64,000 bases of DNA. It comes from Rhododendron vialii. Lineage: Eukaryota; Streptophyta; Magnoliopsida; Ericales; Ericaceae. Of the stretch, positions 18,126-49,400 are shown piece by piece. How positions within the stretch are numbered: position 1 is the stretch's first letter; each line of letters opens with the position of its first letter. Both the position numbers and the translations under genes were made by a program. The notes below the pieces were generated by a model, which worked only from the letters and a program-made list of their open reading frames with translations, had not been told where the DNA came from and did no database searches. The stretch covers positions 16,034,001-16,098,000 of the forward strand of contig NC_080557.1 in NCBI RefSeq assembly GCF_030253575.1, read 5' to 3'.

Positions 18126-18262
18126 CACTGCCACTGGTACGGCACATACCCGACCAAGGTTTAAATTATACTTATCCAGAACTCAGTACATTTCTTCTCT
18201 CTCTCTCTCTCTCTCTCATCTTCCATAATTCTGAACCTGAAATCCTGAAAACCCTAATTCCA

Positions 18263-21200
18263 GATGGAGACACGGAGAAAACTGAGGCAGAGAGGGAAGG
18301 GAAGAGAAATGCCAGATTTCCCGTTAGATTTGATCGTCGACATACTCTTGCGGCTTCCCGTGAAACCGCTTTTGCGTTTCAGGTGCGTTTCTAAACCTTT
18401 TTGTGCTCTCATAGACAGTCCCGATTTCGTCAAATCGCATCTCAAGCGATCAACCCAAACCAGAAACCATCTCACCCTCATACTCTGGGATTATGATAAT
18501 AGAGTCTCATCTTCCGTGACTTTCGATTCGCTGGATAATGCCGTCGAACTCGACCACCCTTTGGGGTCCAGTCATTGGCCCACTCGAATTGTGGGTTCTT
18601 GTCATGGATTGATTGGTTTGCGTAACCGTGAAGATGTTATTCTTGCTATTTGGAACCCATCGACCCGAAGGTGCCAAGAGTTACCATTTACAATGACTCA
18701 TTACCCTGTCTATCATGTCTATGCCCAGCATGAGATGCACGGTTTTGGGTACGACTCCATTACTGATGATTATAAGATGGTGAGGTTTGTTCAGTTTTTT
18801 GAATTTGGTACAGACAATTTTGTCTCCTCAGTTAAGGTTTACACCATGAAGTCTAATTCATGGCGAAAGATTCGGGATTTCCCTTATTGTCTTTATTATG
18901 GGCAAGGTTGTGCTGTGCTTGTTGGAAGTGCTTTACACTGGGTAGCGCATCGATTGCCGTCGGATGCTGCTAAATTTGTTGCTGCTCTTGATCTAACAAC
19001 TGAGGACTATAGAGTGGTGCCGCAACCTGAATTTTCTGACAATGCCTTTGACATGAATGTAGCAGAGTTGGGAGGGTGTCTATGCATACTTTGCGATTAT
19101 GACCAAGTTCGGGTTGATGTGTGGGTGATGAAAGATTGTGGAGTGAAGGAATCGTGGAGCAAACTGGTTTCTGTAGCACAACCAGAAGTGATTCCTTCGT
19201 TTGAATCTGTGATTCCTGTGGCTTATTCAAAGAGTGGTTGTGAAGTCCTACTGGTTCAAGACAATACAAAGCTTGTTTGGTATGATCTCGAGCATAAAAC
19301 AATTAAAAAGATCAAGACTCGTGGTCGTATAACGGATGGTTTTGAGTCATTTGTCTGTGTGGAAAGCCTTGTTCCACTTAATGGACGATGCGTTGTACCC
19401 AATGAAGGTGGTGAAACTTATGCCACAGATTAGCACGATTAAAGGAAGGAGAGAATACACCAAATAAGAAGGGTAACCAGAGGTAAACAACGCAAGTCAT
19501 TTTTGTTTTCCAATGATATCTTTAATGTCGCTTGATTGATGTTAGTCGTGAAATTGGAAATTATTTCAGTTGATATTTGGAAATCTCTGTTTTGCTTTAG
19601 TCGATTAAACTTCTAATGTGTATATGTGCTAGTGTGTTATCAAGTATCAGGAGAATAGTTCTTTGCTTCTTGCTTCAGCCCAACTAATGCAAAATGAGAC
19701 TATTGTGGTTTAATATGATGTCAATCAACACATCTTACGATTCTTATGAAGGAAAGCTCTTGAGTTACATGCGAGCCACGGGCATTTTGCTAGTTCATTA
19801 AGATGGTTTATGACAAATACCTCTTTTGTACATGGGTGGCATGGCCTTGATGCCTTCTCAATAAAATTTTATTACGTATTTCAAAAATGTTTATGACAAA
19901 TCCCACTCTTATTCATTTCCTCTAACATGTGATTTGCCTTATGATCATTATTCCTTCTAAAAATTGTGCCCAAAAATATGGTTAGGAATTTGGGCATCTA
20001 ACAACAGTCATCCTAAATCTTAGATTGTCCTATTAATAAGAGAGTGTATGCGTATTTGTCTCTGTGGACCTTCTTAAATGACGACATAGCGTTTAACTTG
20101 TCCTATTTTATGAGGATTATGGAACTCAAGTTTTTGGCTTTGCTATGGCTTGCACTATTTCCCTTTAAGAAAGGTAGATTGCCTTCTATAGACTATCTAT
20201 CTACATTGGGTTACAAGTATTTTGTTATTTTACCTCTCATTACTTTCCTCTTTCTTTGACTTTTTCCCTTGAATTTCCTGGGTTTCTATGAGAGAGAATT
20301 TCTACTCGATGGGGTGCAGAGTGGTTCTTCAACTCTGTCGATTGTCCTTATTCACAATGTATCCTGCTATTATCATGTATTCTTGTGGTATTCTCAATGT
20401 TCAGCCTGGCCTGCTCTCTTCAATAGCTTTTTTTAGTTGTTATAGTTTCCAATTTGTGAAAGGGGAATAGGAGAGCAGGAAGTAAGACTCGAACCGCGGC
20501 TTAAAATTTCAGTTGTATCACCGTCTTTGTTACTAGTCGTAGCTATGCAAATAGTCTCGTTGAGTTTTTTACTTTGCCTAGAGTGGTGGGCGTACATTGA
20601 TGCATATTGAATTGATCTCTTTCTTGATACTATCCTAGTACTTTGTTAGCTGGAAATTCACTAACTCACATAACCATCAATAATCTTCTCGATATCAGGT
20701 TTTTTGTATGAGCACTGGCATGATGGTTCGATTAGATAAGTGGGCATGTCAACGAGTACTGAGTATCAGAGACTCAAAGAAAAGAAAGAAGACCAATATA
20801 CTGGTATGTCATACAGATAACCTGTATGTATGCGCGACTAGAGTACAATAGGGAACTCTAGCAGCTGACGTATCCATTTTTTGTTTAATGATAATTATGG
20901 TTTATGAATACTTCTCTTAATGTACTTTATGTTAAAGTAAACAATAGCATCTTTTGGCATGTAATGGATCCCTTCTTGTGTAATGAAATTTGTTGGGGAT
21001 TCAGTTTAATGCTTTGCATGGAAACTATTAATGTTGGATTCTTCTTCATTTTTATTTTTTTTTCCCTCTTTTTCTGTTCAGTAAGTTTCCTAGATTGGTT
21101 GGGAATGCTCAATATGGAGTGCCTTGGTGAAAAGAAAATGTTGTCCTTTCATCTGACAATCTAGCACATGTGTTTTTGTTAGCATGTTGAGATTGATGGA

Positions 21201-32071: not shown

Positions 32072-32651
32072 AGAAGTCTACGGTCTTTGGGCGCCTAAAA
32101 CGGACAATATTGTACAAAAATGGATGAGATCGTCGTGGGCACATGGCCGCACCGGCTCTCTCTCTCTCTCTCTCTCTCTCAAAACGAAACTCACTTGAGA
32201 GCCGATCAAGCACACAGAATTTTTAATTTTTTGAACCAGATTTTCGGTGTTTCAGGTCCGAAAAAATGTAATGTTTTCGACATTTGAATACCGTAATATT
32301 TAAATAATTTCGACAATTAGTTACTGAAATGTTTATATATTTTCAGCAGTCAATTACCGAAATGTATATATATAGAAGACTTTTCTAATCTTCAGTAATA
32401 TAATATTGTCAAATAAATTTTCGGTAACCTAATACCGAAGTATATACCAGAATTCGGCAGTTAATTACCAAATTATATATGTATTTTCAACAGTTAGTTA
32501 CTGAAATATAAATATGTTTTCGACAGTTAGTTACCGAAGTATATACCAGAAGGGCAAGTAAGACATTTTGCATTAGGGGCTCATGTTGTAATTATTTAAA
32601 AAAATTTAATGGACTAATAGAGAAAATAATGGGTTGCGAATAGTCGTCCCC
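31600..32651. mobile_element. Non-autonomous relative of the large MULE, ~1.05 kb
   Basis: Left end GGGACTATTCGCAATCC and the reverse complement of the right end (GGGGACGACTATTCGCAACC) are inverted and share CTATTCGCA and TTTTCTC/TTTCTCC with the ends of the 32722-46283 element. The subterminal regions also match (TAACCCATTAATTTC on the left; TTAGGGGCTCATGTTGTAAT on the right). Flanks TTATCGGTG and TTGTCGGTT agree at 7 of 9 positions, a degenerate target duplication. The interior holds a 5S-like relic, CT repeats and TTTCGGTAAC-type repeats but no coding sequence. Confidence 0.7.
31800..32180 (+). mobile_element. 5S-rRNA-derived retroelement fragment (Cassandra-TRIM-like)
   Basis: 31897-31959 resembles the 3' half of plant 5S rRNA: AACTTCACAGTTAAGCGTGC, then TAGTCCAGTGATGGGTGACC and AAGAAGTC. 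The flanks (TGTCGGTTGAGGGGGAG, CACAATTTATAAGGAATGAT, CTAAAACGGACAATATTGTA) look like the LTR of a short terminal-repeat element rather than a 5S gene; Cassandra TRIMs carry 5S promoters in their LTRs. The segment TAAGAAGTCTACGGTCTTTG to a CT run is tandemly duplicated (31951-32070 and 32071-32180). Confidence 0.6.
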
Positions 32652-32721
32652 TTGTCGGTTGGCCTTGACGGTAGAATTCTAAAGGTGAAAAAAATTATGA
32701 GGAAGGTCTTCAAAAAAATTC

Positions 32722-32766
32722 GGGGGCTGCTATTCGCAGCCCCGTATTTTCTCCCGTAGCCCGTTA
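32722..32766 (+). repeat. Left terminal inverted repeat of the MULE
   Basis: Starts GGGGGCTGCTATTCGCAGCC and continues through TATTTTCTCCCGTAGCCC. The preceding bases AAAAATTC repeat after the right end. Confidence 0.85.
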
Positions 32767-33241
32767 CTCCACGTAGCCCATTTGCAATATTTTAAAAAAG
32801 AAAATTTTCTCCATGTAACCCATTAAATGTACCTGATCTTCCTATTATACCCTTCCCTCTAAAAAATTACACTTAAACTCCCCCACCCATCCAAATAGAA
32901 ACCCTAATCCCAGCCAAATACCCAGCCCACCCATTACGTCTCTTCCCACGCCACTCCATTTCCGTCGCCCCCCACCTCCACCTCCATAGCCACCACTGCA
33001 ATACCGCCACTCCTGCCGCCGCACCACCGCCGCACCACCGCTGCACCACCGGCTCAGGTTCTTCTCTCTCTCTGATCTTCTCTCTCTCTGTTCTTCTGTT
33101 CTAATCTCCCTCTGTTGTTCTTCTTCTTCTCTCTCTCTCTCTCTCTTTGTCTCTCTGTCTCTCTGTGTGTGTGTGTGTTCTTCACCACCGCCACCCCACC
33201 ACGCCAACCCATTTACATACATGTATTTGTGTAGAGAATTT

Positions 33242-33357
33242 GGTAATTAGATCCCGTATTTTTGTAAATATTTTGGTAATTAGATCCCGTATTTTTGTAA
33301 ATATTTTGGTAATTAGATCCCGTATTTGTTTAGAAATGTTGGTAACTAGATCCCGAA
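33242..33357 (+). repeat. Four-copy 33-bp tandem repeat
   Basis: GGTAATTAGATCCCGTATTT units begin at 33242, 33275, 33308 and 33341 (the last with GGTAACTAG). The period is a multiple of three, so it reads as a repeated 11-residue peptide, but I see no reason to call it coding. It lies in the upstream region of the PMD gene, inside the MULE; 33358-34739 otherwise holds no recognisable gene. Confidence 0.85.
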
Positions 33358-34745
33358 ATTGGTAGCAAAAAACGGTGAATGTGCCCGATTAGTAAGCTGT
33401 GAGATGCTACGGACTCCACATCCTCCACGGCTCCACCTAATTGGACTCCACATTCCCTGGTTCTAATCGATTAACCCTAACTTAGAGCAAAGAATATGAA
33501 ATAGCTCATAACCATACAACTTAGACTAGCGCATAACCAACTAGGATTTAACTTATCAGAGAGTCGGATATTTTGTGTCCTCGACTTCATTGTGATGATT
33601 GAGCCATGGCTGCCTCCTTTCGCAGAAATCTTTAACCTATTTAAATTTAAAACATCCAAATGGAATAGATCCACCACCAAATTTGACCTAATTATGCAAT
33701 AGAGTGGAACCTTGATTGATACATGCAACAAGGTGAAAAGATCATAGGTTTTCACAATCACCTTAGACGCGTACCCGATGAGAAGGGATTCAATTGAATG
33801 AGTAAGGGCTGGACTCTGAAGATGCTCTTCAATTAACTCATAGTCTAATTATAAGCCAAAAAATGCGCTAAGGTTCCTTGCTGTTTTTCAGTAAGCATTT
33901 TCTAGGATCTTAGCTTTAGATTGTCACCATCTTCAGCTATTACAAGAGTTACCACTAGTTCATATGCAAGGCCCTTTTCCCAAACAAGAAAGTTATAGTT
34001 AAATAAACAAGAAAGTTAATAGTGATTCCCAAATGGAAAAAATAATCAAGAGCTTTGCATACTTCAACAAAAAAAAAAAAAAAGGATTGGAAATTAGTCT
34101 TTTTGAAAGATATATTTAGGTTTTAAACAACGTTGCCAATAGCTTGTGTCCCTCGACAAAATATTAGTAAGGGTATTGATATTAGTCTTTTTGAAAGACG
34201 TACTCATATAGGGTACTGAGATTAGTTTTTCCGAAAGACGTACTCATATTTGAAACAGCATTCTCATACTCAACAAAATAGTACGAGGAATTATTACCAG
34301 ACGAAATCAAAAGCTAAGGTATGGCCTTCATCATAAGTTGTCTTGGTAATTTGCTATTCTTCCTGTCCCTTCTCTGTTTTGGAATATATTTTGCAGAACA
34401 CTTGGTACAAAACTTGTCAGACTCGATTTGTCAACCAAACAATGAACATATAAGAGGGAGAGCAATGAACACTTTGTTGCAGTGAGCCAAATGAGTTTGA
34501 AAATGTTATTGAGTTTGCTTTGGACATTGGTTGTCTCTATTTGCATCATTTGTATGAATTGGAGGAAGTCTGAGTATGTTTTTACAACAACGGTTGAAAA
34601 GCTATAGAGTACTATTATGGAGTTTTCATTTTGTCCTGCTATAAGCCATAGCTTACTGATAGTGCATAGTCTTATAGGCATTCTTACTTGTTGTTGTCTT
34701 TTCAGACTTGTAAATTTGTATTATTGTTATGATATGCAGGTTATT

Positions 34746-37700
34746 ATGCGTCCACCACGTGGAGTTCGAGGCCGAGGTCGGGCCCGGGGTGTCCTTCAGG
34801 ACGAGTCTGAGGCTCCTGAGGTAAACAGCTCAAGTCTTTCTCATAGACAAATTCTGCCATCTTCCTTCGTAGTGTCTCATGTTTAACAAGTTGATCTTTT
34901 TATCACATAGGTGGTATTCGACCTGAGAACACGAGACTTGACATACCTGCCCGAGTTTATACTCAATAAAAAAACCACTCGGCTTAGGTCGGATCTGTCC
35001 CACATATAGTGTAAGGGCATGTACGAACAGTGTGAAACATTTTGTACAAAAAACTGTTTTAGTTTGTGTACAAAAAGCTAAAAAAACCACTCCGCTTAAA
35101 CTCGGATCTTTTTATCATGAATGTTCGATACTACTTGATGTGTACCATTCCTTGTTATGACTCATCGATAAGAGGGTATCGTTCCCTCTTTAAAGACTAC
35201 GCATTTTTGTCCAGTATCCAGTAATACAATTTGACTGAATGTGAATTAACTAGCTAGCTTTAAGTTCTGTCATGCTGAAGTGGCGTAGAAATTGATGATG
35301 GCATACTGTTTGCAAGATTGATGATGATAACTTCAACCACTTGAGCCACGTTGAAGTATGTTTGCTGTTTGTTTATAAAGGATACGGGCATGATCAACCA
35401 AATTGATAAATAAGAACTGTATTCAAAATATTTTGTTGAAAGCATCGGAGTCAAAGTGGATATGTTTAGGTGGACAAAAATAATGAAACTTTGTTACTAG
35501 TAGTTTTTTGTGGAAGATTTTTTTCTGGTAATGGAGTTCAAGGATGTGAATAGGAAAAGTTTATGTCTCAGGCATTAACTGTTTGTAAGCAACAGTGTAT
35601 TGCCTTTTGGTAAATTGGAGACCAGAAGCAGAAGCTTCACGTATGATAAAATGTTCTGACTTCTGAAACAAAATTATTTTTCGGTAACCAATCACCGAAA
35701 TTGTTTATTATTTTCAGTAATCAGTAACTGACATGTTATGCTTATTTCGGCAACCAGACGTTAAAACTTCATGTGGAAATGGAATAACTTGTAATTGTAT
35801 TATTTAGGTTATACGTTCACTGCCTCAAGTTCGAACTCGTGGAGGCCGAGATCGGGGCCGTGGCCGGGGCGAGGCCGAAGTGCATCGTCAGGAAGAGGAA
35901 CATGCTTTCGTCGAGGACATACCTTTGGATGAGGTTAAAATTTTCCAATTTCACACCAGCTTTGTAGTAGTTTGTATTTTATCTTTGTTTGTTTTATGAA
36001 ACGTTCGGTACCAAAAAATTGAAATATGTATGAACTGCCTCTTTTAAGACTAACTTGTAATTGTATTATTTTCATATACGTGTAGGTTATGCGTTCACTG
36101 CCTCGAATTAGAACTCGAGTAGGCCGAGGTCGGGGCCGGGGCCGGGGCAAGGCCAAAGTGCCTCGTCAGGAAGAGCAAGATGTTGTCTTCGAGGACATAC
36201 CTGAGGATGAGGTGAAAATTTTCCAAAAAGGGTTCCACTACATTTTTATTTTGTTGAACACTAACTCATATTATTTGCAATCTATAGTTTTTTAGTTTTA
36301 GGAACACTAATATGTACTGTTTTTGTTTTTTCTTATACGTGTAGGTTATAGCACCGCAGCCACCGGTAGAGGAAGATGTAAACTTTTTTCAATTTCAAAA
36401 TTGCTTTGAATAGTATTTTGTAATCTTTATTTGTTTTATGAACAATAATATGTATTGTATGTTTTTGCATATACGTGTAGGTTATAGCACCGCAGCCACC
36501 GGTAGAAGAAGAGGTAAACTTTTTTCAATTGCATAATTGCTTTCAATAGTATTTTTTAATCTTTATTTGTTTTTTGGGACATTCTAATATGTATTGTATG
36601 TTTTTGCATATACGTGTAGGTTATAGCACCGCAGCCACCGGTAGAAGAAGAGGTAAACTTTTTTCAATTGCATAATTACTTTCAATAGTTTTTTTTAATC
36701 TTTATTTAATTTATGAACAATAATATGTATCGTATGTTTTTGCATATGCGTGTAGGTTATAGAACAGCCACCGGAAGAGGTACATTTTTTTCAATTTTAT
36801 ACTCGCTTGCTTTTATTACTTTTTTTTAATAGTTATTTGTTTTATGAACACTAATCTGTATGGTATTATTGGCATGTATGTGTAGGTTATTCGAGCCCGG
36901 CGTCGACGTCGGGGCCGTGGCCAGGGCCGGGCAGAAGCACAGCAACATGACGATGCGCCTTTGGATGTGGGTGGTCCGGAGGACCTATCCTTGCTAAAGA
37001 GTTTTCACACACATGTGGCTAAAGCCATTTTGGAGGGAGAAGAGAGGGGTACATTAAGATTGCATCAACACTCGGGTCTTTTGGGCAATTGGGTAGTTAC
37101 AGAAGACAGGTTCAAACAAAAGGTATTGAATTTGGGCTTGCTTCCATTGTGTAGCATAAATAAAAACGCGCAATGCAATTCCTTTAGAATTGCTGCATTT
37201 GTTGAAAGGTGGCATCCGGAGACGAACACCTTTCACTTTGACTTTGGTGAGATGGGGTTGACATTAGATGACGTAGAACATCTACTAGGGATACCTGTTC
37301 GTGGATTGCCTGTGTACACGGAGGACGAAAGGACGCCAAAAGAACTGTTAATGGATTTGCTTGGTGTGTCGAACGAAGTTGCGACAAATGCAATTACTGT
37401 GAATGCAGTTAAACGGTATACAGTTAAGTTGAGTTGGTTGGAGATGAATTTCAAAGACGTAAATGAGACGGACACAGACGAGCGGGTTGTGTGTTGTGCT
37501 CGTGCGTACCTGCTATATGTCATTGGGTGCACCCTTTTTTGTGATAAGTCAGGTGGGTTCGTACAGCTTGACCTCCTTCCACTATTGGAGGATTTAGATC
37601 AGGTTCATACGTACGGATGGGGCTCTAGTTGCTTGGCATATTTGTACAGAAATCTTGGTTATGCGAGTAGGAGGAATGCAAAGCAGATTGGTGGATTTCT

Positions 37701-39132
37701 TATATTACTAGAGGTACACCTACTTTTTCTGATTATGAAAAAACCAAAAAGTTCATGTTACGGATATATGATTGTAATATGCTTCACATGCGTATAATGC
37801 TATAGGCGTGGATAAACGAGCACTTCCCAACGCTACATGCTGTTGTTGACCCAGAGTACACGGAAGAACTTCCACGGGCACGACGTTGGTGTCTGCATAG
37901 CGAGAGTGGCACAAGTGTACAGCATTACCGGCGCGTGTTGGACAACTTACTTGTAGATGAGGTAGAATTCTAACACACTCTGCATTCAACATTTTGTAGA
38001 ATTACGATGCCAATTATAAGCTGTCTTACAATATTATACAGTTTGAGAGTAGAAATTAAACTCTTCCACTGAGGACAGAGAACTGTAAGTACAATTATTT
38101 TATAAGCTAATCAAATATAGGAGAAGTTCCAACTTAACCTGTGTCAATATTCTCCAAATTCTCGGTAACACATTGAGATGCATGACATGGCTTTTGCTTA
38201 AAAATATCTACTATCAAACCATTAGCCTTCTCCATTGTCTTCCTTAACTCATCTTCTGAAGTATCGTAATTCTAGCACAGTGATGCAGGGACATTAATCG
38301 AGCAGAATCATTAATCGTGAAATTTCTTAAGCGTATGGGGACATGAATAATCAAGATAGCCTGCTATTGTAACCCTGCCTCAAATGGCTTTTGTTCAAAT
38401 GAAGAAAACCCAATAGGAGTTCATGCCACTTTTCAATTGACGTGTGCACTACTTTGCCTCCTTGGCCTACTTATAAGCCAAGTTCCACATATATGCCAGA
38501 CTTTAGTTTTTGAATGAATGATACAGTGTTAGTTGATGGCTTTTGCCGGATCGTTTGATTAACTTGTTAATTTATTGTACTATTACATATCATATGTTTT
38601 GTTTGACAAACAGGTGATATTTGACCCGTACAAGGCCCGCAGGCAAAATGTCTCTGAGATTGCTTTCTACACTGGTCCCATTCGTGCCATGTCCTATGTG
38701 GAGCCATACCTCCCCGACAGAGTCTTGAGGCAGTTTGGACTATTGCAGCGAATACCCGCAGACCCTATAGCACCTCAGCGTGCATCGCGAGGCCAGCACA
38801 CCTACAACGTTGTTTACGAATGGACTGAAGGTTTTTGGTCTAGCCCTGACTACCACTTGGTGCCTGAGGATAAGAGAGAGCCTACACCACCTGGGATTCC
38901 TTGGGCGTGTACTGATGACTACATTCCGTGGTTGAGGGTGTTCTCGCACCCGAGGGTGGGACATGGTTTGGCACCTGGTGGAGGGCGTGTTAGGCAGGGT
39001 CGTGAGGAGCAGGTTCGGGTTGTGTTGGATGTGGTACACAGGGCTTTGGGCGATACCGAACTTGGAGCTGTTGAGTTGCGGCAGGCACTGCAGGACGTAG
39101 AAGCTATTTTACGGCCCACATTTGTTACTTAG
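34746..39132 (+). CDS. Plant mobile domain (PMD, MAIL-type) protein, ten exons, ~650 aa
   Basis: Exons: 34746-34820 (splice-in could begin at 34740), 35808-35933, 36086-36211, 36345-36377, 36481-36513, 36620-36652, 36756-36779, 36886-37713, 37806-37961, 38614-39132; all junctions GT-AG and phase 0. PMD proteins (aminotransferase-like plant mobile domain; MAIN/MAIL1 relatives) act in the nucleus in transposon silencing and gene expression, and also occur inside transposons. The PMD spans about residues 170-590: [58 protein letters not shown] and [17 protein letters not shown]. Residues 1-170 are an RG-rich region made of repeated mini-exons. Start ATG is the first in-frame one in the first mini-exon; an additional 5' exon is possible. 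Confidence 0.82.
35808..36885 (+). repeat. Tandemly duplicated exon-intron modules in the PMD gene
   Basis: Exons 35808-35933 and 36086-36211 are near copies ([20 protein letters not shown] versus [20 protein letters not shown]). Exons 36345-36377, 36481-36513 and 36620-36652 are copies encoding [10 protein letters not shown](D/E), and 36756-36779 is a shortened one (VIEQPPEE). Spacing is 130-140 bp for the small modules. Each begins GTTAT(A/G) after a CGTGTAG acceptor and ends just before GT, so every module is 0-0 phase and can be gained or lost without a frameshift. The introns between them are also alike. Confidence 0.88.
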
Positions 39133-41380
39133 GAGTTTGCGGGGTGTTTTGGGGTGAGGTTAGATGTTGGGTTTATGGATAAACAGTTCTTATTAGTATT
39201 TTGAATTGTGTAAGACATTTGCTACTTGGACATGTTGGGCTTTTTTTTTACGAACATTTGGTCAAGCTTGTTCTGCTTTTTTTGAACTACTATGAAAGTG
39301 TCTTTCACAAAAACAAACTTTCAAAATTTCAGGCCCTGTCCACATGGTCCTCCACAGGAAGAGAATCTTTGTAAATATGATGGAGTCCAGTACCTTGTCC
39401 AATCACAACATTTGTTTGAAGTTGCAATTTTCTCCATACATCACATTATCTACTCCCCCAGGCCAATTCAAAATTCTGTATAGAGCCCCCATACTCACAT
39501 GCTCCTCCTCAGGGAGAGAATCTAAAAAGGCATTTATGTTCTGTAAATCGTACAAATTATTCAGTATCGAAGTGCTGAAATATTTATTATAACAACTTCA
39601 GGTTCTAAATGCTGAAACTTTCACAATTTTTGGTAGGACACTACTGAAAAATTTTAATAATTTCGGAAAGCAAATGCTGAAATGCTGAAATCAACCTGCA
39701 ACCGAAATTAATAACACTTTTCAGTAATAAGGAACCGAAATTTTATAATTACTTCAGCAAGCAAATGTTGAAAAAGGGCAGAATCTTTTTCCCCAATAAT
39801 TTCGGCAACCAAACTTCTGTATAGTGCCCCCACCCACATGCTCCTCCTCAGGGAGAGAATCTTTCGTAAATATGTGCAGTGCCTTGTCCAATCAGTTGAT
39901 TTGTTTTGAACTTGCAATTTTCTCCATACAGCCCATTATCTTCATCTCAAAGCCCCAACGTATATGCCTATAAATTGGGAGCTGACAGAGGGAGTTTCAG
40001 ACTCATACCTCCCTCTATATTTCCAACTATTTCATACAAAATTTAACCTGTGTCCCAAATTTGTAAACCCTATGGCCGGAGTTTCAATTAACATATGTAC
40101 ATCCCATAGCGTACATATATTTTCATCAGTCAAATTATTTCGATGGCTTGTGCATTGTCATGCTTTTTCCAAGCTAGGTAATCAAGCCGTGTCCATCCGA
40201 ATATGAGGTATTGGGAATATTCAACGTCCTGACCATTCGTTCCCTTGTCCGAATAAGAGGTGTTGGGAACGTCGGTCAGTGTGCGTACATACTACAACGA
40301 CCACATTTGGTTTTCTTGTTGAGTGGAAGGCACGTCACCTACCCTCCCTCTCGACGTCGTCGGAGTTGTAGTCACGTCGATGCTCCTGTAGCTGTGAAGG
40401 TGTGTGGAGCTTCCTTCACTTCCCCTGACGTACCCTGTCCGGGGCTTACAATAATACGCAGTTGTGCCTTGTTGCTGTGTAGGAGCCCTGAGCCACCCCA
40501 ACCTGCTCCATCGTAAAATAGTATCGTTTGACATTTTCAATGTTATTTTATACTTGTTTTATATAAGTTTTGTATAAGTTGTGGTGCTCAAAGTGTGACA
40601 AAACGAGTCTTATAATCTTCTGAAACATTGTAAATGTTGGATAGACACTCAAATGTTGTCTTGTATTTTCTGTAAAGGGGGCGACAATAAAACATTCTCC
40701 TTTAGCCCAAAAAAAAATTTCATGGGCCCTTCGACAGTTACTTACCGAAATTAAGATACATTTTCATCATACAATTACCGAAATATAATATTTTGTTCAA
40801 CAGTTATTTACCGAAAATGTTCGTTCGGCAGTAGTTTACTGAATGTTGAACTTATTTCCGACATGTAGTTACCGAAATATAAACTTTATTTCAACAGTTG
40901 TTTACCGAAATGTTATGTATGATTTTCAACAACTATTTACCAAAATATAGTGCTAAGGGAGAAATTACGGGGCTGCCAATACTCGGCCCCTCTGTAGATT
41001 GTGGTACTCATATTTGGGCAAAAAAGATTCAGATTCAACTCCATCAATGACACTTGGTGCCTCAGAGAGTCCACCTAACTTTTTGTTCAAAAATAAAAAC
41101 ATATTTCAGCAGGCACATGATGAAATAGAATGATTCGGTATCCAACTGCTGAAATATTATACAAATTTCGGGTCATAGATGCTGAAAAAATACAAAAATA
41201 TCGGTATGCAGCTACAACAAGATTACAATAACTTTGGAATGCAGCCTCTGAAATGAACTTGTGCTCAGTCAATTTGTTCACATAAACCCCATAAGAGCGA
41301 AACCAAACTCCATGAATGTGCTTAGTTAACAACATTGCAATATAAAGCGTCAACATGATAACCATACGTATAAAACAAAA
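39133..41380. other. Non-coding spacer between the convergent PMD and transposase genes
   Basis: Holds a direct repeat (39340-39520 and 39815-39950, sharing CTCCTCAGGGAGAGAATCT and GCAATTTTCTCCATACA), clusters of TTTCGGTAA/TTACCGAAA-type repeats (39560-39790, 40735-40945, 41095-41240), and an internal terminus-like sequence at 40960-40993. A GC-richer patch at 40200-40520 has open frames on both strands that I do not recognise. Confidence 0.6.
40960..40993 (+). repeat. Internal copy of a MULE terminus
   Basis: Plus strand GGGAGAAATTACGGGGCTGC then CAATACTCGGCCCC matches the reverse complement of the left terminal repeat at about 28 of 34 positions. It shares the ACGGGGCTGC spelling with the left end rather than the right end. 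Confidence 0.6.
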
Positions 41381-44300
41381 CTAATCTACGTCAATCGACT
41401 CAGCGGTTGCTACATCACTTCCTATTATGGCTTTAAATGCTTCCATTTCGGCAGAAAAAAGTGTCTCCCATTCATTGGCCTCCTCCCATCGAAATTTGAA
41501 CCAATTGTTGGCAATAGGCGGCACGGGGGAACATGCTTTTAGATCAACCTATCAAAGTAAAAAGACTTTAAAAATTGCACATGAAGGCAATTTGTAGTAA
41601 TGTTGAATTTATGAGAAAGAAAATTATACAGTATGTACCTGTACGAAGTGATCTCCGTTCACAAGTCCAATTCCAAGAACCCTTATTTGGTCTGATGATG
41701 GAGGACGAGAATGGAGTGGAAGGAAAGTAAGGCATTGAAGTTGGGATAGGAGGACAACCACCACATTATAAGTTGAAGCTACAACGTGACCCATGTCAGG
41801 AAAAATCATCCACCTATCTTCGGGTGCAGTTCCGTCTTGAAAGAACGACAATCTATAACGCAACTTGTTAGCACCTCCGATACCAGTAATCTTTTCGTAC
41901 AGGTCATAATGGTTATTCACCTCCAAGAGCAAATCATTTCGGCATGTCTTCCAATTGTGCTCGAATTGGTGCATAAAATAAGCTACCGCTCGGTACCCAC
42001 AATTTCCATCACTTGTCACATCCGTTATAGATTTTACGTGCGGCCGAATTGGTTCCGGAAAGTTATTAAGGTACGGTCCTACAAAAAGGGTTCCAAGAAG
42101 TTTTGGCTTCTTCCGCCTCGGTAACTCCTTTGCCGCCTTGGGGGTTCTCACAATGGCCTTTCCCTTGGGGCTATTATCATCCACCGCATTGATGCTTTTT
42201 TTTTTTGTGGTCTTGTCGGGAGTTTCCACATCCGCCATGGCATTCGCCTTGGGCCTTTTTTTCACAACTGCCTTAGCCTTAGGGGTTTTTTCCTTGACCG
42301 ACTTAGGAGTTTCCAAGGATGCCTCAACATACTCAAACTCAGACGGGTTCCTACGCATTGACTTATTGACCGAACCGGACTTTCGACCGCGGGTCTGGAC
42401 CTTCTGTTGGGGTGAAGACAGGGATATGGTTGATGGATTCAAAATGGGTTTCAAAGTCTTCATCCAATGCATATGGGTCATAGGGTTTTGGCCAACCATT
42501 TTGGCCATAAAGATATTCCAATCGGCATTCATTAGTTTCAAAATTGCCCCATCATCTTTATGTTTCTCAAACGAAAGCATCTTCCAATGATCATTAATCA
42601 ACGACAACGGTATGGGTTCACCCCGATTCTTGAATGGAGCAATCTCGTGAGCACAAGGTAAACCATGGATTCGGCGAATAGGACAGCCACAGTCAACCTT
42701 GTCCTCCACGACCATGTCATCAATTTTCTTAATCTCCGGCAACATCAAACCCATGGCAGTCTGTGAAGTAGCTCCCCTTAAATGGTCAAAGATAGGAATT
42801 CTAAACTGGTGCTGCCAACAATTCAAACTTTTCTCAAAGCTACCCTTTATATCCGTGATTTGTAATTTAACCAAGTCGTGCATTTTAGCCCAGGCCGCCG
42901 AGAAGTTGGCTTGGCAATTCGCAACGTGGGATTTCAGCTTCGCATGTTCAGACTCAACCCTGTGGAAATGGTAAAGGAAAGTTTTAGGCATCGAAATATC
43001 AATATCTAATTGTGAAAAGATATGGACACAGTGAAACATGCATATGGTGCTAGCCATTTACCTATTGCTTGTCAGGTTGCCAAAGTGCATTACATTGTTC
43101 GTCCAAGCTGATACAAATTTCTGCCTATACGGTCCCAACCAATTTGTCTCAACGTACAGAAGCGCATCTGGATATAGCACAAACTCCCGCTTCATTGTAC
43201 AAAGTGTTTGCTCGTATAAAGATATAGTCGGTGAGTACACCAGTGAATCCCAAGCATGCTTAAATAGAGCCCAAGTCGTCTCATCAAACATCTTTCTACA
43301 TTTGGCATATACATTTTGCCCAATATGCCATCGACAAAGAAGATGGCTGGCCGTTGGGAACACTCTTGTAATGGCATTCACTAGAGCTAACTCCCTGTCT
43401 GTCACAATAACACCGGGAAGTGCAGCAGGATCCATTATACTCTTCAATTTCTCCAACACCCACGTATAGTTTTCCTCTTTCTCCCCATCAATGAATGCAA
43501 AGGCAGCCGAAAAAGTCCTCTCGGTGGATGTAATGCCAACAATCTGGAGCAAAGGAAACCTGTATCTGTTGGTCTTGTATGTGCAATCCATCAACAAAAC
43601 CCGAGGGAAAGCACGCAACATGTCACCAGAAGTAGGATGTGACCAAAATAAGTCCTTCACACAGTCATTGTCATCTTTCCGATTAAACTCGATGTACCCA
43701 TATTCTTGTAACTTAGCCAATAAATATTGCATTTGAGATCTTCCCGCTCGGTCCTTAAACCCATGCTTGTAGCGTGCGTTGTAGATGGTTTTAATTGAAC
43801 TTACATTGAATTCATCCTTGCCCTTTATTAGACTTAGGATCTCTCGCGGTGTAGACAATGACGAAACACACATATCCACCAACATATTCGACTGCTCCAA
43901 AGATAACCTCGCGGGATAAGCGTGCCCCTCAAGCTGTTTCGCAGGAGGATGATTGTGATTGCCGTTGTAGACAGTGACAGTCCAACCTTCCAACCCCTTA
44001 ACACATCTCAGTTGAAACGGGCATTCGCATTTCTTAGTTCCTGTGACGCGTGCTATCTTCTTTGCCTTCGCTTCTTTGCCATTGCCATTCTCCTTCACAT
44101 TACCTCCTTTGTCCTTTGCCTTGTTGATAAACGGTCTAAACTTTCCACCCCGTTCGCATGCAAACCGCATCCTTGGCCTTCGGTTCTTTGTCATTCTCTC
44201 TGCCGACTTTATGATAATTACAAACCCATTTTCCTTACCGGTAGATGTTATCCAATCTCTCAACATATCTTCAGATGCAAAAACCTACAAACATGATTCA

Positions 44301-45957
44301 ACAAAAACATTTAATAACAGTAAACAAAGAAAATCCAAAGAACCATTGAATCATCCAACTATTTTGAAAACACTCACATTCTCCGTTGTAAACTCTCGTG
44401 TCAAATCATATAGGGCCATTGGACCTATGTGGCTGCCGTGCGCACTCACATTCTCCGTCGTACACTCCGGTGCTATGGTCACTGGACCTATATGGCTGCC
44501 GTGCGTTGAAGCGTCACCCTGAAGAAAGTATCAAAAATTCAAAAGTCCATTAAAACAAGTTTTATACCTCTCTAGATCTGTTTTGGTAAGTGAATGTCAA
44601 AAATACATAGAATTCGCATAAGTATCACTTTCGGTAACCACATGTCAAAAATATATACAAAATTCGGTAACCAACTGCCGAACGTTCGGCATGGCCAAAA
44701 TTACATAACATTTCAGTAAGTACCTATTGAAAATAACATTACATTTCGGTAACTACACGTCGAAAATATGTTCAACTTCGGTAACCAACTGCCGAACTAT
44801 GCATAGAAAAATTATTATACACAACATTTCGGTAAGTAGCTGTTGAAAATAAGATTACATTTCGGTAACTACACGTCGAAAATATGTTCCAACTTCGGTA
44901 ACCAACTGCCGAACTATGCATAGAAAATTATTATACACAACATTTCGGTAAGTAGCTGTTGAAAATAAGTTTACATTTCGGTAACTACACGTCGAAAATA
45001 TATTCCAACTTCGGTAACCAACTGCCGAACTATGTATAGGAAAATTATAACATAACATTTCGGTAAGTAGGTATTGAAAATAGGATTATATTTCGGTTGT
45101 TACACATTGAATATATATTCAAATTTCGGTAATCAACTGCCGAACTATAGAAAAAAATTATACATAAGATTTCGGTAACTACACGTCGAAAACATGTTCA
45201 AAATTCGGTAACCAACTACCGAACTATGTCTACAAAATTATACATAAGTAAATAAGATTATATTTCGGTAACTACACGTCGAAAATATATTCAAACTTCA
45301 GTAAACAACTGCCGAACTATCTATAATGGGAAAACCATGCATACATTTCGATAAATTGCTGTTGAAGAAAAGATTATATTTCGGTAAATACATGTCGAAA
45401 ATATGTTCAAACTACGGTAAAGAACTGCTAAACTTAATACTATATAGGAAAATCATACATACATTTCGGTAACTAGCTGTTGAAAAAAAGATTCTATTTC
45501 GGTAACTACATGTCAAAAATGCATACAACAAAAAAACAATAAACATATATTTCGGTAATTAGATGCTGAAAATGTATCTCAATTTCGGTAACTAGCTATC
45601 GAATATGGTAATATTTTACAGTGGTTAGCTACCGAAATTACTTACTTTATTCTGTTCATTCTGTTCATTCTGTTCGAACCAGAAACATCGACGAAACCCT
45701 TGAAAAACTGGGTTTACAAAATCCAGACGCCACAACAACAAAACAGAGGCATTGTAAACGGAAAAACTTACCTCCTCACGCGGCTTCCAAGATACAGTAT
45801 CCATCACAATATCATTCTTCTCCTCTCCCATGATATGGTTGTCAATAAAATTTGATTCAATTTCAAAATCAAATCCTACAAGTGGGTCAAAAAATGGATC
45901 AATGGAAGGACTTGAACCTTCCATTGATACAATATATGGTCTTTGCTCCTCCTCCAT
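41381..45957 (-). CDS. MULE transposase with FAR1 zinc finger, DDE domain, SWIM finger and OTU-type protease domain (~1012 aa)
   Basis: Exons in transcript order: 45957-45772, 44518-44378, 44284-43062, 42959-41639, 41548-41381; all GT-AG, total 3039 nt with no stop. The transposase cuts the element ends and inserts it elsewhere. Domains: FAR1/WRKY-GCM1 zinc finger near residues 195-221 (CECPFQLRC ... NHNH); DDE core with Asp in LLMDCTYKTN (~342), Asp in VIVTDRELAL (~405), a CRWH motif, and Glu in SNRVESEHAKLK (~519), whose codons cross the exon 3-4 junction; SWIM finger CGC...GLPCAHE (~607-621); a Lys/Pro-rich linker; and an OTU domain with DGNCGYRA (Cys ~837) and GDHFVQV (His ~954). Exon 2 contains an internal duplication of HGSHIGP. 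The start MEEEQRPYIVSMEG is preceded in frame by serine-rich sequence that I take as leader. Confidence 0.88.
44600..45640. repeat. Array of TTTCGGTAAC-type repeats in the first transposase intron
   Basis: About twenty copies of a core TTCGGTAA(C/G) occur, organised into ~105-115-bp higher-order units that contain ATTTCGGTAACTACACGTCG, then CTTCGGTAACCAACTGCCGA, then ACATTTCGGTAAGTAGCTGT. Each short unit pairs the core with a mirrored TGCCGAA or GTCGAAA, giving imperfect palindromes. The same cores recur at 35670-35760, 39560-39790, 40735-40945 and 41095-41240, and in the small relative at 32240-32560. Confidence 0.88.
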
Positions 45958-46449
45958 TGAAAAATTTGAGAGAGAGGAAAAAAGAGAATGATGATTTAGA
46001 GAGCCGAGAGAAGAGAAGATGAACTGGTACAAAGCTGAGAATGAAGAACTGGAGGTTGTGTGCGTTTTTTTTATTTTCAAACGTGAATGATGATTTTGGG
46101 AGGATTTTGAGGGGAAGGGGGTACTGGATAATTTAGGGATTTTGGTTATAAGGGCATATAGGTCATTTCATGTATAGGTATAAGGGTAAGTAAGTCATTA
46201 TACATTAGGGGGTCATGTTGTAATTACTTGCAAATTTTTAATGGGCTCCGGGAGAAAATAGAGGGCTGCGAATAGCGGCCCCCAAAAATTCACTGATGAC
46301 AAAAATACTCCAAAATATACAACAGTACAATCCAGGAGTTTACCCCTTTTCTTTTCTTTTTTGACAAGTGGAGTTTACCCCTTTTTCAATCACACATTTT
46401 ACAATAGAGACACGGAGAGAACTGAGGCAGAGATAGAAGGGAAGAGAAA
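45958..46449. promoter_or_regulatory. Head-to-head upstream region of the transposase (-) and F-box C (+)
   Basis: The two start codons are 492 bp apart and divergent. The segment includes the right MULE terminus (46239-46283). Promoter activity is inferred from position; I cannot name a TATA box with confidence. Confidence 0.4.
46239..46283 (-). repeat. Right terminal inverted repeat of the MULE
   Basis: Minus-strand reading GGGGGCCGCTATTCGCAGCC then CTATTTTCTCCCGGAGCCC. It lies 167 bp upstream of the F-box ATG at 46450. Confidence 0.85.
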
Positions 46450-49400
46450 ATGCCGGATTTCCCGATAGATTTGATCGTCGACATACTCTTGTGGCTTCCC
46501 GTGAAACCGCTTTTGCGTTTCAGGTGCGTTTCTAAACCGTTTTGTGCTCTCATAGACAGTCGCAATTTCATCAAATCACATCTCAAGCGATCTACCCGAA
46601 CTAGAAACCATCTCACCCTCGTACTCTGGGATTATGTTGATTGTATCCCATCTTCGGTTAACTTCGATTCGCTGGTTAACTTCGATTCGCTGGATAATGC
46701 CGTAGAACTCGACCACCCTTTTGGGTCTAGTTTTTGGCCCACTGCAATTGCGGGTTCTTGTGATGGATTGATTGGTTTGCGTAACGATGAAGAATATAGT
46801 CTTGCTATTTGGAACCCATCTACCCGAAGGTGCCAAAGGTTACCATTTACGAAGATTGATTACCCTGGCTATGATATCTATTTCAAGCATGAAATGTACG
46901 GTTTGGGGTATGACTCCGTTACTGATGATTATAAGATGGTGAGGTTTGTTCAGTTTTTTCAACGTGGTACAGACAATTTTGTCTCCTCAGTTGAGGTCTA
47001 CAGCATGAAGTCTAATTCATGGCGAAAGATTCGGGATTTCCCTTATTGTCTCTATCACGAGCAATGTTGTGCCGTGCTTGTTGGAAGTGCTTTACACTGG
47101 GTAGTGCGTCGATTGCCTTCTGATACTGCCAAAATTGTTGCTGCTCTTGATCTTACAACTGAGGACTATCGAATAGTGCCACAACCTGAATTTTCTGACA
47201 ATGCCTTTGACATGGATGTAGCAGAGTTGGGAGGGTGTCTATGCATACTTTGTGATTATGTCCAAGTCCGAGTTGATGTGTGGGTGATGAAAGATTGTGG
47301 AGTGAAGGAATCGTGGAGCAAACTATTTTCTGTAGCACAACCGGAAGTGATTCAATCATTTGATTCTTTGATTCCTGTAGCTTATTCAAAGATTGGTTGT
47401 GAAGTCCTATTGGTTCAAGACAATACAAAGCTTGTTTGGTATGATCTCGAGCATAAAACAATTAAAAAGATCAAGACTCATGATATAACGGATGGTTTTG
47501 AGTCATTTGTCTGTGTCGAAAGCCTTGTTCCACTTAATGGATGATGCGTTGTACTCAATGAAGAGGGTGAAACTTATGCCACGGATTAGCACGATAAAAG
47601 GAAGGAGAAGAATACACCAAATCAGAAGGGTAACCAGAGGTAAATAACACAAGTCATTGTTGTTTTCCGACGATATCTTTAATGTCGCTTGATTGATGGC
47701 GGTCGTGAAATTGAAAATTGTTTCAGTTGGCATTTGGAAATCTCTGTTTTGATTTAGTCGATTAGACTTCTGTGTATATGTGCTAGTGTGCTATCAATGT
47801 TTCAGGAGAATTAGTTCTGTGCTTGCGTGTTTTCAGATATATGTTGATACTATGACATAAGATAGTCTTCAACTATTTAGTACAAAGTGTGAAATACTAT
47901 GGCATCCCATCTAATATAAAATGAGACTATTGTGGTTTAATATAATGTCAATCAACACATCTTACGATTCTTATCAAGAAAAGCTCTTAAGTTACATGGG
48001 CCACAGGCATTTTGCTCGTTCATTAACATAGTTTATGACAAATCCCTCTTTTGTACGTGGGTGGCATCCCTTGAAGCCTTCTTCATAAAATTTTATTACG
48101 CATCAAAAAAAAGTTTATGACGAATCCCACCCTTATTCATTTCCTCTTAACATGTGATTTGTCTTATGACCATTATTCCTTCTAAAAATTGTGCCCAAAA
48201 AGATAGTTTAAGATTTTGGGCATCTATAACAGTCATCCTCAAATCTTAGATTTTCATATTAATGAGAGAGAGTGTGCGTATTTGTCTCCGTAGACCTTGT
48301 TAGTTGTTACATGACGACATAGAGTTTCAATTTTCTTATTTTATGAGGATTATGGAACTCAAGTTTTGGCTTTGTTATGGCTGGCAGTATTCCCTTTCAG
48401 AGAGGTAGATTGCCTTCTATAGACTGTCTTTCCATATTGGTTGGCAAGTATTTTGCTATTTTCCCTCTCATTACTTACCTCTTTCTTAAGACTTTTTCCC
48501 TTGAATTTCCTTTGTTTCTATGAGAGAGAATTTCTTCTCGATGGGGTACAGAGTGGTTCTTTAGGCAAGTGGAGTAATTCCGTCGATTGTCCTTATTCAC
48601 AATGTATCCTGCTATTATCATATATTCTACTGGTATTCTCTACATTTGGCATCGCCTGCTCTCTAAAATAGCTTTCTTTTAGTTATTTTGGGTTTTCAAT
48701 TGGTTAAAGGGGAATAGGAGAGCCGGAAGTGAGACTCGAACCGCAGCTTAAAAGTTCACTTGCTATCGCCGTCTGTGTTTCTAGTTGTAGCTGTGCAAAT
48801 AGAGTCTAGTTGAGTTTCTTACTTTGCCTAGAGTGGTGGGCATACATTGATGCATATTGAATTGATCTCTTTCTTGATACTATCCTAGTATCCTTAACCT
48901 CGTTAGCTGGAAATTCACTAACTCACATAACCATCAATAATCTTCTCCATATCAGGTTTTTTTGTATGATCACTGCCGTGATGGTTCGATTAGATAAGTG
49001 GGCATGTCAACTGAGTACTGAGGATCAGAAATTCAAAGAAAAGAAAAGAAAGAAGACCAATATACTGGTAGTATATCATAAGGGTAACCTGTATGTATGT
49101 GTGACGAAAATACAGTGGGGAACTCTTGCAGTTAACGTATCCCTTTTGTTTAGTGATAATTATGGTTTGTGTATACTTCGCTTAGTGTACTTTATGCTAA
49201 AGTAATCAATAGCCATCTTTTGGCATGTAATGGATCCCTTCTTGTGTAATGAAGTTCGTTGGGGCTTCAGTTTAATGCTTTGCATGGGAACTAGTAATGT
49301 TGGATCCTTCTTCAATTTCGTTTTGCTTAGCAAGTTTCCTATATTGGTAGGGCTGCTCATTATGGAGTGGTTTGGTGAAAAGAAAATGTTGTCCTTTCAC

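Follow-up and report, generated by a model that had tools for sequence, protein, structure and literature searches.

A Mutator-like element of Rhododendron vialii carries a plant mobile domain gene convergent with a transposase-OTU gene and may counter its own silencing

Introduction

The first description of the plant mobile domain (PMD) came from a Mutator-like element (MULE) of rice (PMC5418596), and PMD-C is fused to MULE transposases in grasses and in Amborella (Ikeda et al. 2017, PMC5418596). MAIN and MAIL1, which are PMD-domain proteins, act in silencing (PMC5418596, PMC9899485), and the idea that PMD captured by a MULE serves anti-silencing is already in print: it was proposed in PMC5418596 and repeated in PMC8616336, in both as speculation. 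In the VANDAL elements, an encoded protein, VANC, binds short motifs in noncoding tandem arrays and removes silent marks, and both the arrays and the variable, repeat-rich regions of VANC change between families (PMC5735166, PMC10398659). In what follows we analyze a MULE at positions 32722-46283 of a 64-kb stretch of the genome of Rhododendron vialii (C1:16034001-16098000, hereafter the window), in which a PMD gene stands convergent with a gene for a transposase fused to an OTU-like domain, and in which we find arrays of short dyads.

In our literature search, outside which lay most subscription journals and preprints, we came across neither a PMD gene standing apart from, and convergent with, a gene for transposase-OTU nor arrays of this kind; in a paper that mentions MULE, OTU and transposase together, the OTU belongs to Helentrons. 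A PMD gene that is separate and convergent, in combination with dyad arrays, appears to be new.

Results

The window holds one MULE whose two genes are both open. Its termini (GGGGGCTGCTATTCGC beginning at 32722, GCGAATAGCGGCCCCC finishing at 46283) belong to 45-bp terminal inverted repeats (TIRs) of the kind that marks the MULE superfamily, the 5' arm at 32722-32766 on the forward strand (also found as I19) and the 3' arm at 46239-46283 on the reverse strand, 88.9% identical to each other. The target site duplication (TSD) AAAAATTC directly flanks the element at 32714-32721 and 46284-46291. The PMD gene (34740-39132, forward strand, start codon at 34746) has 10 coding exons and encodes 650 aa; its match to PF10536 reaches E=2e-64 and 218 bits, against a curated Pfam cut-off of 34.9. 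The transposase-OTU gene (41381-45957, reverse strand) has 5 exons and encodes 1012 aa, with a MULE-type DDE transposase domain (PF10551, E=7e-28, profile positions 1-99 of 99), an OTU-like domain, and FAR1-like and SWIM-like stretches that both lie under the Pfam cut-offs (0.003 and 0.9). Both coding sequences, the second running from 45957 to 41381, have GT/AG intron borders and a single terminal stop. An initial annotation of this DNA had described 45-bp termini with a matching 8-bp flank around complete PMD and transposase-OTU genes with frames open over 10 and 5 exons, and all of this holds.

OTU cysteine peptidases carry a catalytic Asp, Cys and His in a GDGNC...H context. In the OTU-like domain (41381-42097, reverse strand, the end of exon 4 together with exon 5) 7/7 aligned copies share these residues (numbered D35, C38 and H155 in alignment A1), and a sister element, L038, keeps them; the alignment excludes copies C9 and C10c, where the exon is split in two frames, and the partial C11. 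Against Pfam C65 the domain stays under the cut-off (E 0.2 with the whole protein, 0.04 with the domain alone). The GDGNC motif aligns to PDB 6dx5, a viral polymerase entry that we take to be an OTU protease, at E=0.006 for the whole sequence and 0.11 for the stretch; the fold prediction, with a mean pLDDT of 30.6, gave a model too poor to use. For the PMD protein a sequence search yielded no convincing relative of solved structure (best E 1.2).

The two genes move together. The genome searched comprises 532.6 Mb in 13 contigs, in which at least 41 matches to the 5' end and at least 46 to the 3' end were scored, and we read 15 copies besides the window. Seven carry both genes (C9, C12, C4, C1, C2b, C5 and C10c), seven are internally deleted (C10a, C10b, C13, C3, C6, C11 and C9b), and for one (C2) the match was confined to the 5' end. 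The copy on C9 is 99.8% identical to the window over 13.55 kb; for C12 and C4, which contain an insertion of about 0.8 kb, identity over the main 11.5 kb is about 98.6%; C10c has both genes but large deletions in the transposase. MULE TSDs typically span about 8-11 bp, and at nine copies, the window counted, an individual TSD of 8-9 bp is clear. Five are two-gene copies (window AAAAATTC, C9 TTTTTCTT, C4 ATATTTAT, C1 TTCTTTAAA, C2b TTAATTAT) and the others deleted ones (C11 TAAAGAAA, C13 TTTTGTTT, C3 TTTTTTTA, C6 TATTTAAA). The flanks of C12 and C10b are homopolymer, in C9b four bases match at the edge of the sequence read, and C10a, C5 and C10c were not counted as having a clear TSD. Because the five two-gene copies have differing TSDs of their own, the 13-kb unit has undergone at least five independent insertions; PMD and transposase-OTU are carried as one mobile unit. 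This agrees with the single mobile unit and the young insertion, here 99.8% identical to the copy on C9, that had been proposed from the window, and a genome search with termini and proteins, suggested at the same time, finds both genes in 7/15 other copies and so not always in separate elements. One two-gene copy, inverted, lies about 17 kb to the left of the window (C1:16003268-16016791).

A degenerate, TIR-like stretch near 40990, inside the element, is the end of a 314-bp insert (40677-40990) resembling a miniature inverted-repeat transposable element (MITE), with termini related to those of the element, dyads, and an imperfect TSD (flanks TCTGTAAA/TCTGTAGA); it resembles three MITEs that lie next to other copies. 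Among the other two-gene copies it is present in six of seven (274-314 bases) and absent from C5, and C5, C13 and C3 run straight across its empty site with one TCTGTAAA. The MITE therefore inserted later into a two-gene element, and is not the border of two elements.

The coding cores bear the mark of constraint. Relative to the window, the four older two-gene copies (C1, C2b, C5 and C10c) are 94.7-97.3% identical in PMD exons and 90.8-95.9% in PMD introns, and 95.3-97.5% and 92.6-94.8% in transposase exons and introns. Over ten pairs the ratio of nonsynonymous to synonymous substitution rates (dN/dS) is 0.27-0.54 for the PMD core, 0.19-0.48 for the transposase and 0.27-0.63 for OTU, against 0.46-0.78 for the linker, 0.19-1.05 for the transposase N-terminus and 0.46-1.89 for the PMD N-terminus. 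For 11 selected and mutually non-independent region-pairs, Fisher tests gave p=7e-7 and 4e-5 for the PMD core, p=2e-8 and 6e-6 for the transposase, and p=0.017, 0.003 and 0.002 for OTU, and were not significant for the PMD N-terminus (two pairs) or the linker (one pair). Judging from these ratios, the PMD core, the transposase and OTU are under purifying selection. Among the eight two-gene copies the window alone has both frames open; in C9 the PMD frame is open and the transposase-OTU frame has one 1-base deletion, and in the remaining six both genes are damaged by one or more stop, frame or splice defects.

The PMD N-terminus is repeat-rich. Tandemly duplicated microexons, in a 136-bp exon-plus-intron unit repeated 4.4 times (36288-36890, forward strand), encode N-terminal protein repeats; in L038 the PMD N-terminus has a coding repeat of 33 bp that is unrelated to the window's.

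To what extent does the pairing reach beyond this young family? Searches of the genome returned at least 103 matches to transposase exon 3, at least 145 to PMD exon 8 and at least 150 to OTU; the pairing count used 64 of the PMD matches, and the counts of neighbors that follow, here and for the dyads, are among the matches listed. We call transposases sisters if they are 49-61% identical to that of the window, and distant if they are 40-44% identical to it. A PMD match lies within 15 kb of 15/19 transposase matches at 80% identity or more, 2/2 at 70-79%, and 10/35 sisters, those ten all at 56-61%, so that 27/56 matches at 49% or more have one; none of the 47 distant transposases does. Twenty-five of the 27 pairs are convergent and 2 tandem, representing 25 distinct loci, since the tandem two are one broken gene and two matches on C1 are one gene. 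None of 167 further PMD starts lies within 16 kb of a transposase match. In L038, a diverged pair that was read, the transposase is 59% and PMD 42% identical to the window's, in the same order and on the same strands, and transposase exon 4 contains a stop. Identities of PMD and transposase to the window are correlated across loci (rho 0.94 for 23 loci; rho 0.75, p=0.002, n=14 for loci below 90%), a comparison with one reference that is not a test of tree congruence. From its recurrence in convergent order at 56-61% transposase identity, the pairing is judged to be old. PMD exon 8 also has groups of genome matches near 40-44% and near 31-37% identity.

The OTU domain has a wider distribution. 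An OTU match lies downstream of 40/47 distant transposases, all without PMD nearby, with OTUs 33-39% identical to the window's, and OTU fusion is thus general while PMD marks one clade, to which it appears restricted by gain there or by loss outside. The initial annotation had suggested a possible two-part system in which the OTU protease joins PMD; the presence of OTU in this larger MULE group without nearby PMD rules out that it is a partner special to PMD. One PMD-less MULE-OTU family, L042-L043 (C6:25088050-25092800) with its relatives, is apparently young: nine transposase matches have equal score and no stops.

Noncoding arrays of dyads lie beside the transposase. Intron 1 of the window's transposase gene (44519-45771, reverse strand) contains 19 copies of TTTC-N14-GAAA (22 bp, at most one mismatch), against a mean of 1.1 and a maximum of 5 in block shuffles, with a spacing of exactly 33 bp in 9/18 successive cases; lengthening the spacer by one base still gives 16 hits. 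The nested MITE has 6 dyads (shuffle mean 0.23, maximum 3), and the window-type consensus, which is derived from the array itself, is matched 23 times in the 64 kb against a mean of 0.01 over 100 dinucleotide shuffles. Close to the 5' end, a tandem repeat with a 33-bp unit (33223-33355, forward strand, 4.0 copies) gave no dyads in this scoring. The sister elements L038 and L039 have 11 dyads each between the genes (shuffle means 0.6 and 1.06, maxima 6 and 5), with 5/10 and 4/10 spacings at 33 bp and a core that differs from the window's. The sister type TTTCAAACTCTAGAGTTTGAAA is a perfect palindrome, and the pattern taken from L038 and L039 matches the genome, with at most two mismatches, 323 times forward and 303 times in reverse, against 11 and 12 for a reversed control. 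Palindromes with no mismatch stand beside 6/22 sister transposases and 0/31 distant ones. They sit about 240-1080 bp upstream of exon 3, and the window array, within intron 1, about 290-1320 bp upstream of it; from position alone we infer that the sister arrays are intronic as well. The sister palindromes listed form 33 clusters, mostly beside no listed transposase, which are perhaps array-bearing non-autonomous derivatives.

The neighborhood holds further features. About 70 bp to the left of the element is the 3' end of another related MULE (32550-32651 and 32308-32539), 79% identical to 46182-46283 and with dyads of its own. Two similar F-box open frames occupy 18258-19433 and 46426-47544, the latter beginning 135 bp to the right of the element's TSD.

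Discussion

Our analysis indicates that a MULE clade moves two convergent genes as a unit, with their cores under purifying selection. What might the PMD protein do for the element? We tentatively favor, at rather less than an even chance, a model like that of VANC, in which the element's PMD protein would be an anti-silencing factor brought to the dyad arrays. The transposase would bind the TIRs and mobilize the element and its deletion derivatives, while recruitment of PMD, alone or complexed with the transposase, to the arrays would protect the surroundings of intron 1 of the transposase gene from repressive marks, with PMD acting as VANC does in VANDAL elements. The route could be displacement of the host MAIN/MAIL1-PP7L pathway or mimicry of a PMD partner, and the specificity of each subfamily would come from the fast, repeat-rich PMD N-terminus together with the divergence of the dyad cores. 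OTU, at a guess, may spare the transposase ubiquitin-dependent loss. We propose PMD as a sequence-specific anti-silencing protein because the components of this clade (a second gene, an N-terminus that is fast and rich in repeats, arrays of kept geometry and changed core) resemble those of VANDAL elements with VANC and because MAIN and MAIL1 have the PMD domain too. In favor of the model we also count the recurrence of the two-gene unit, the purifying selection, the age of the pairing, the excess of sister palindromes in the genome and beside sister transposases, and the retention of intron 1 in deletion derivatives that have lost the PMD core. The testable lead for counter-silencing is PMD with the dyad arrays, the latter absent from the initial annotation.

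A bolder version, which we consider unlikely as a whole, is that PMD recognizes 22-bp dyads, specific to the subfamily and spaced on a 33-bp period, as a counterpart of VANC built on the MAIN/MAIL domain, that PMD and DUF1985 may be distant kin, and that VANDALs and PMD MULEs are two branches of one old counter-silencing system. The best sub-threshold DUF1985 match in the genome overlaps a PMD match (1/23 matches below the cut-off), a hint of distant kinship, and among the matches scored none exceeds the cut-off. No paper joining DUF1985 to the plant mobile domain or to a MULE was found in our literature search.

Several observations weigh against the VANC-like model. With respect to selection, the three youngest copies (C9, C12 and C4) have no exon-intron contrast, and the PMD core of the window-C1 pair is not significant (p=0.068). 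C9b (= L037), an older copy, retains an open transposase-OTU frame of 1010 aa, in which one donor site aligns with a gap, with most of PMD deleted, so that PMD is not needed in cis. As for distribution, the share of sister transposases with PMD nearby is low (10/35), and four PMD-transposase pairs 21-37 kb apart all belong to the distant class. The arrays are uneven: L040 has 3 dyads, inside the shuffle range and within a 151-bp tandem unit, and L041, where PMD is present, has none in the 1 kb read. One PMD-less element has no such array in about 1.1 kb on each side, which makes the PMD-less sequence compared 2.2 kb of one element. The kinship signal is weak as well, DUF1985 scoring 13.8-15.6 bits against a cut-off of 35.1 (E 0.02-0.06), with the single overlap just given. 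Finally, PMD and transposase both differ between the clades compared, and either could read the dyads.

This last point leads to the alternative that survives best, namely that the dyads are subterminal or enhancer sites for the element's own transposase or for a host factor, serving transposition or promoter control, with PMD unrelated. We regard this as a serious if less than probable explanation, and a transposase that reads the dyads is nearly as likely as PMD doing so. The two-fold symmetry of the dyads fits a dimer, the transposase has a FAR1-like stretch (below the Pfam cut-off), and 3/6 palindrome-bearing sister transposases have no PMD within 15 kb, which also counts against the VANC-like model. 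Moreover, PMD-less deletion derivatives and MITEs retain arrays and terminal repeats: 92-100% of intron 1 is kept in 7/7 derivatives by BLAST coverage, a lenient measure for a repeat, with the PMD core wholly lost in six and three-quarters lost in the seventh. Since C10b, C13 and C3 share a structure, the seven derivatives amount to about five events, and survival of the array may be positional, as it lies close to the 3' end. Against transposase sites, conservation is higher for the transposase (59% against 42% for PMD in L038) while the dyad cores have changed much, and no palindromes stand beside the 31 PMD-less distant transposases listed, though the pattern is specific to the sisters.

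Alternatively, PMD could be a cofactor of transposition or targeting, such as a chromatin tether that chooses insertion sites or a partner stabilized by OTU. Convergent pairing and purifying selection suit any useful accessory role; on the other side, C9b with its open transposase frame retains both ends after the deletion of most of PMD, and we think this alternative improbable. Still less credible, and already disfavored, is a functionless passenger acquired by transduplication as in Pack-MULEs. Captured genes are frequent in MULEs (PMC8616336), and a stop, frame or splice defect in PMD in 6/7 other two-gene copies fits a passenger and tells against the VANC-like model; the core is nevertheless under apparent purifying selection, the 10-exon gene is intact in the window, and the pairing extends from 100% to 56% transposase identity with 25/27 pairs in one orientation. 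That two elements, adjacent or nested, were misread as one, as the degenerate terminus near 40990 might suggest, is refuted for practical purposes by the MITE, which has its own TSD and is empty in three copies, and by the 13-kb unit that recurs with different TSDs.

How, then, does the element compare with described systems? In the PMD-transposase fusion MULEs (PMC5418596), as here, PMD has been captured by a MULE, and anti-silencing was proposed there; unlike in those elements, PMD and transposase are here not one protein, PMD being a separate convergent 10-exon gene, with an OTU-like domain on the transposase and dyad arrays besides. A Pack-MULE likewise holds a captured non-transposase gene within MULE ends, but is non-autonomous and without a transposase; our element also encodes a transposase, whose frame is open, and the captured gene is complete and, by its substitution pattern, constrained. 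Elements of the same genome with distant transposases have an OTU-like domain downstream (40/47 listed) and differ in having no PMD match within 15 kb (0/47 listed). The host proteins MAIN and MAIL1, with PP7L, have the PMD domain in common with the window's protein, which, unlike them, is element-encoded, mobile and multi-copy, with an RG-rich repeat N-terminus.

The closest parallel in parts is VANDAL/VANC of Arabidopsis (PMC5735166, PMC10398659), where a transposase and a further protein likewise occur with diverging noncoding motif arrays and a repeat-rich variable protein region; such arrays are present in the window, L038 and L039, weak in L040 and missing from the 1 kb of L041 read. VANC has DUF1985/DUF287 and not PMD, VANDAL TIRs are degenerate where ours are clear 45-bp repeats, and a VANC-type activity of the element described here is putative. 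A young multi-copy family with one fully open copy, PMD-less relatives and a candidate target site makes the question of what transposon-encoded PMD proteins do directly testable. If the VANC-like model is true, plant MULEs would have, besides VANC, a second design for counter-silencing, built on a domain shared with host silencing factors.

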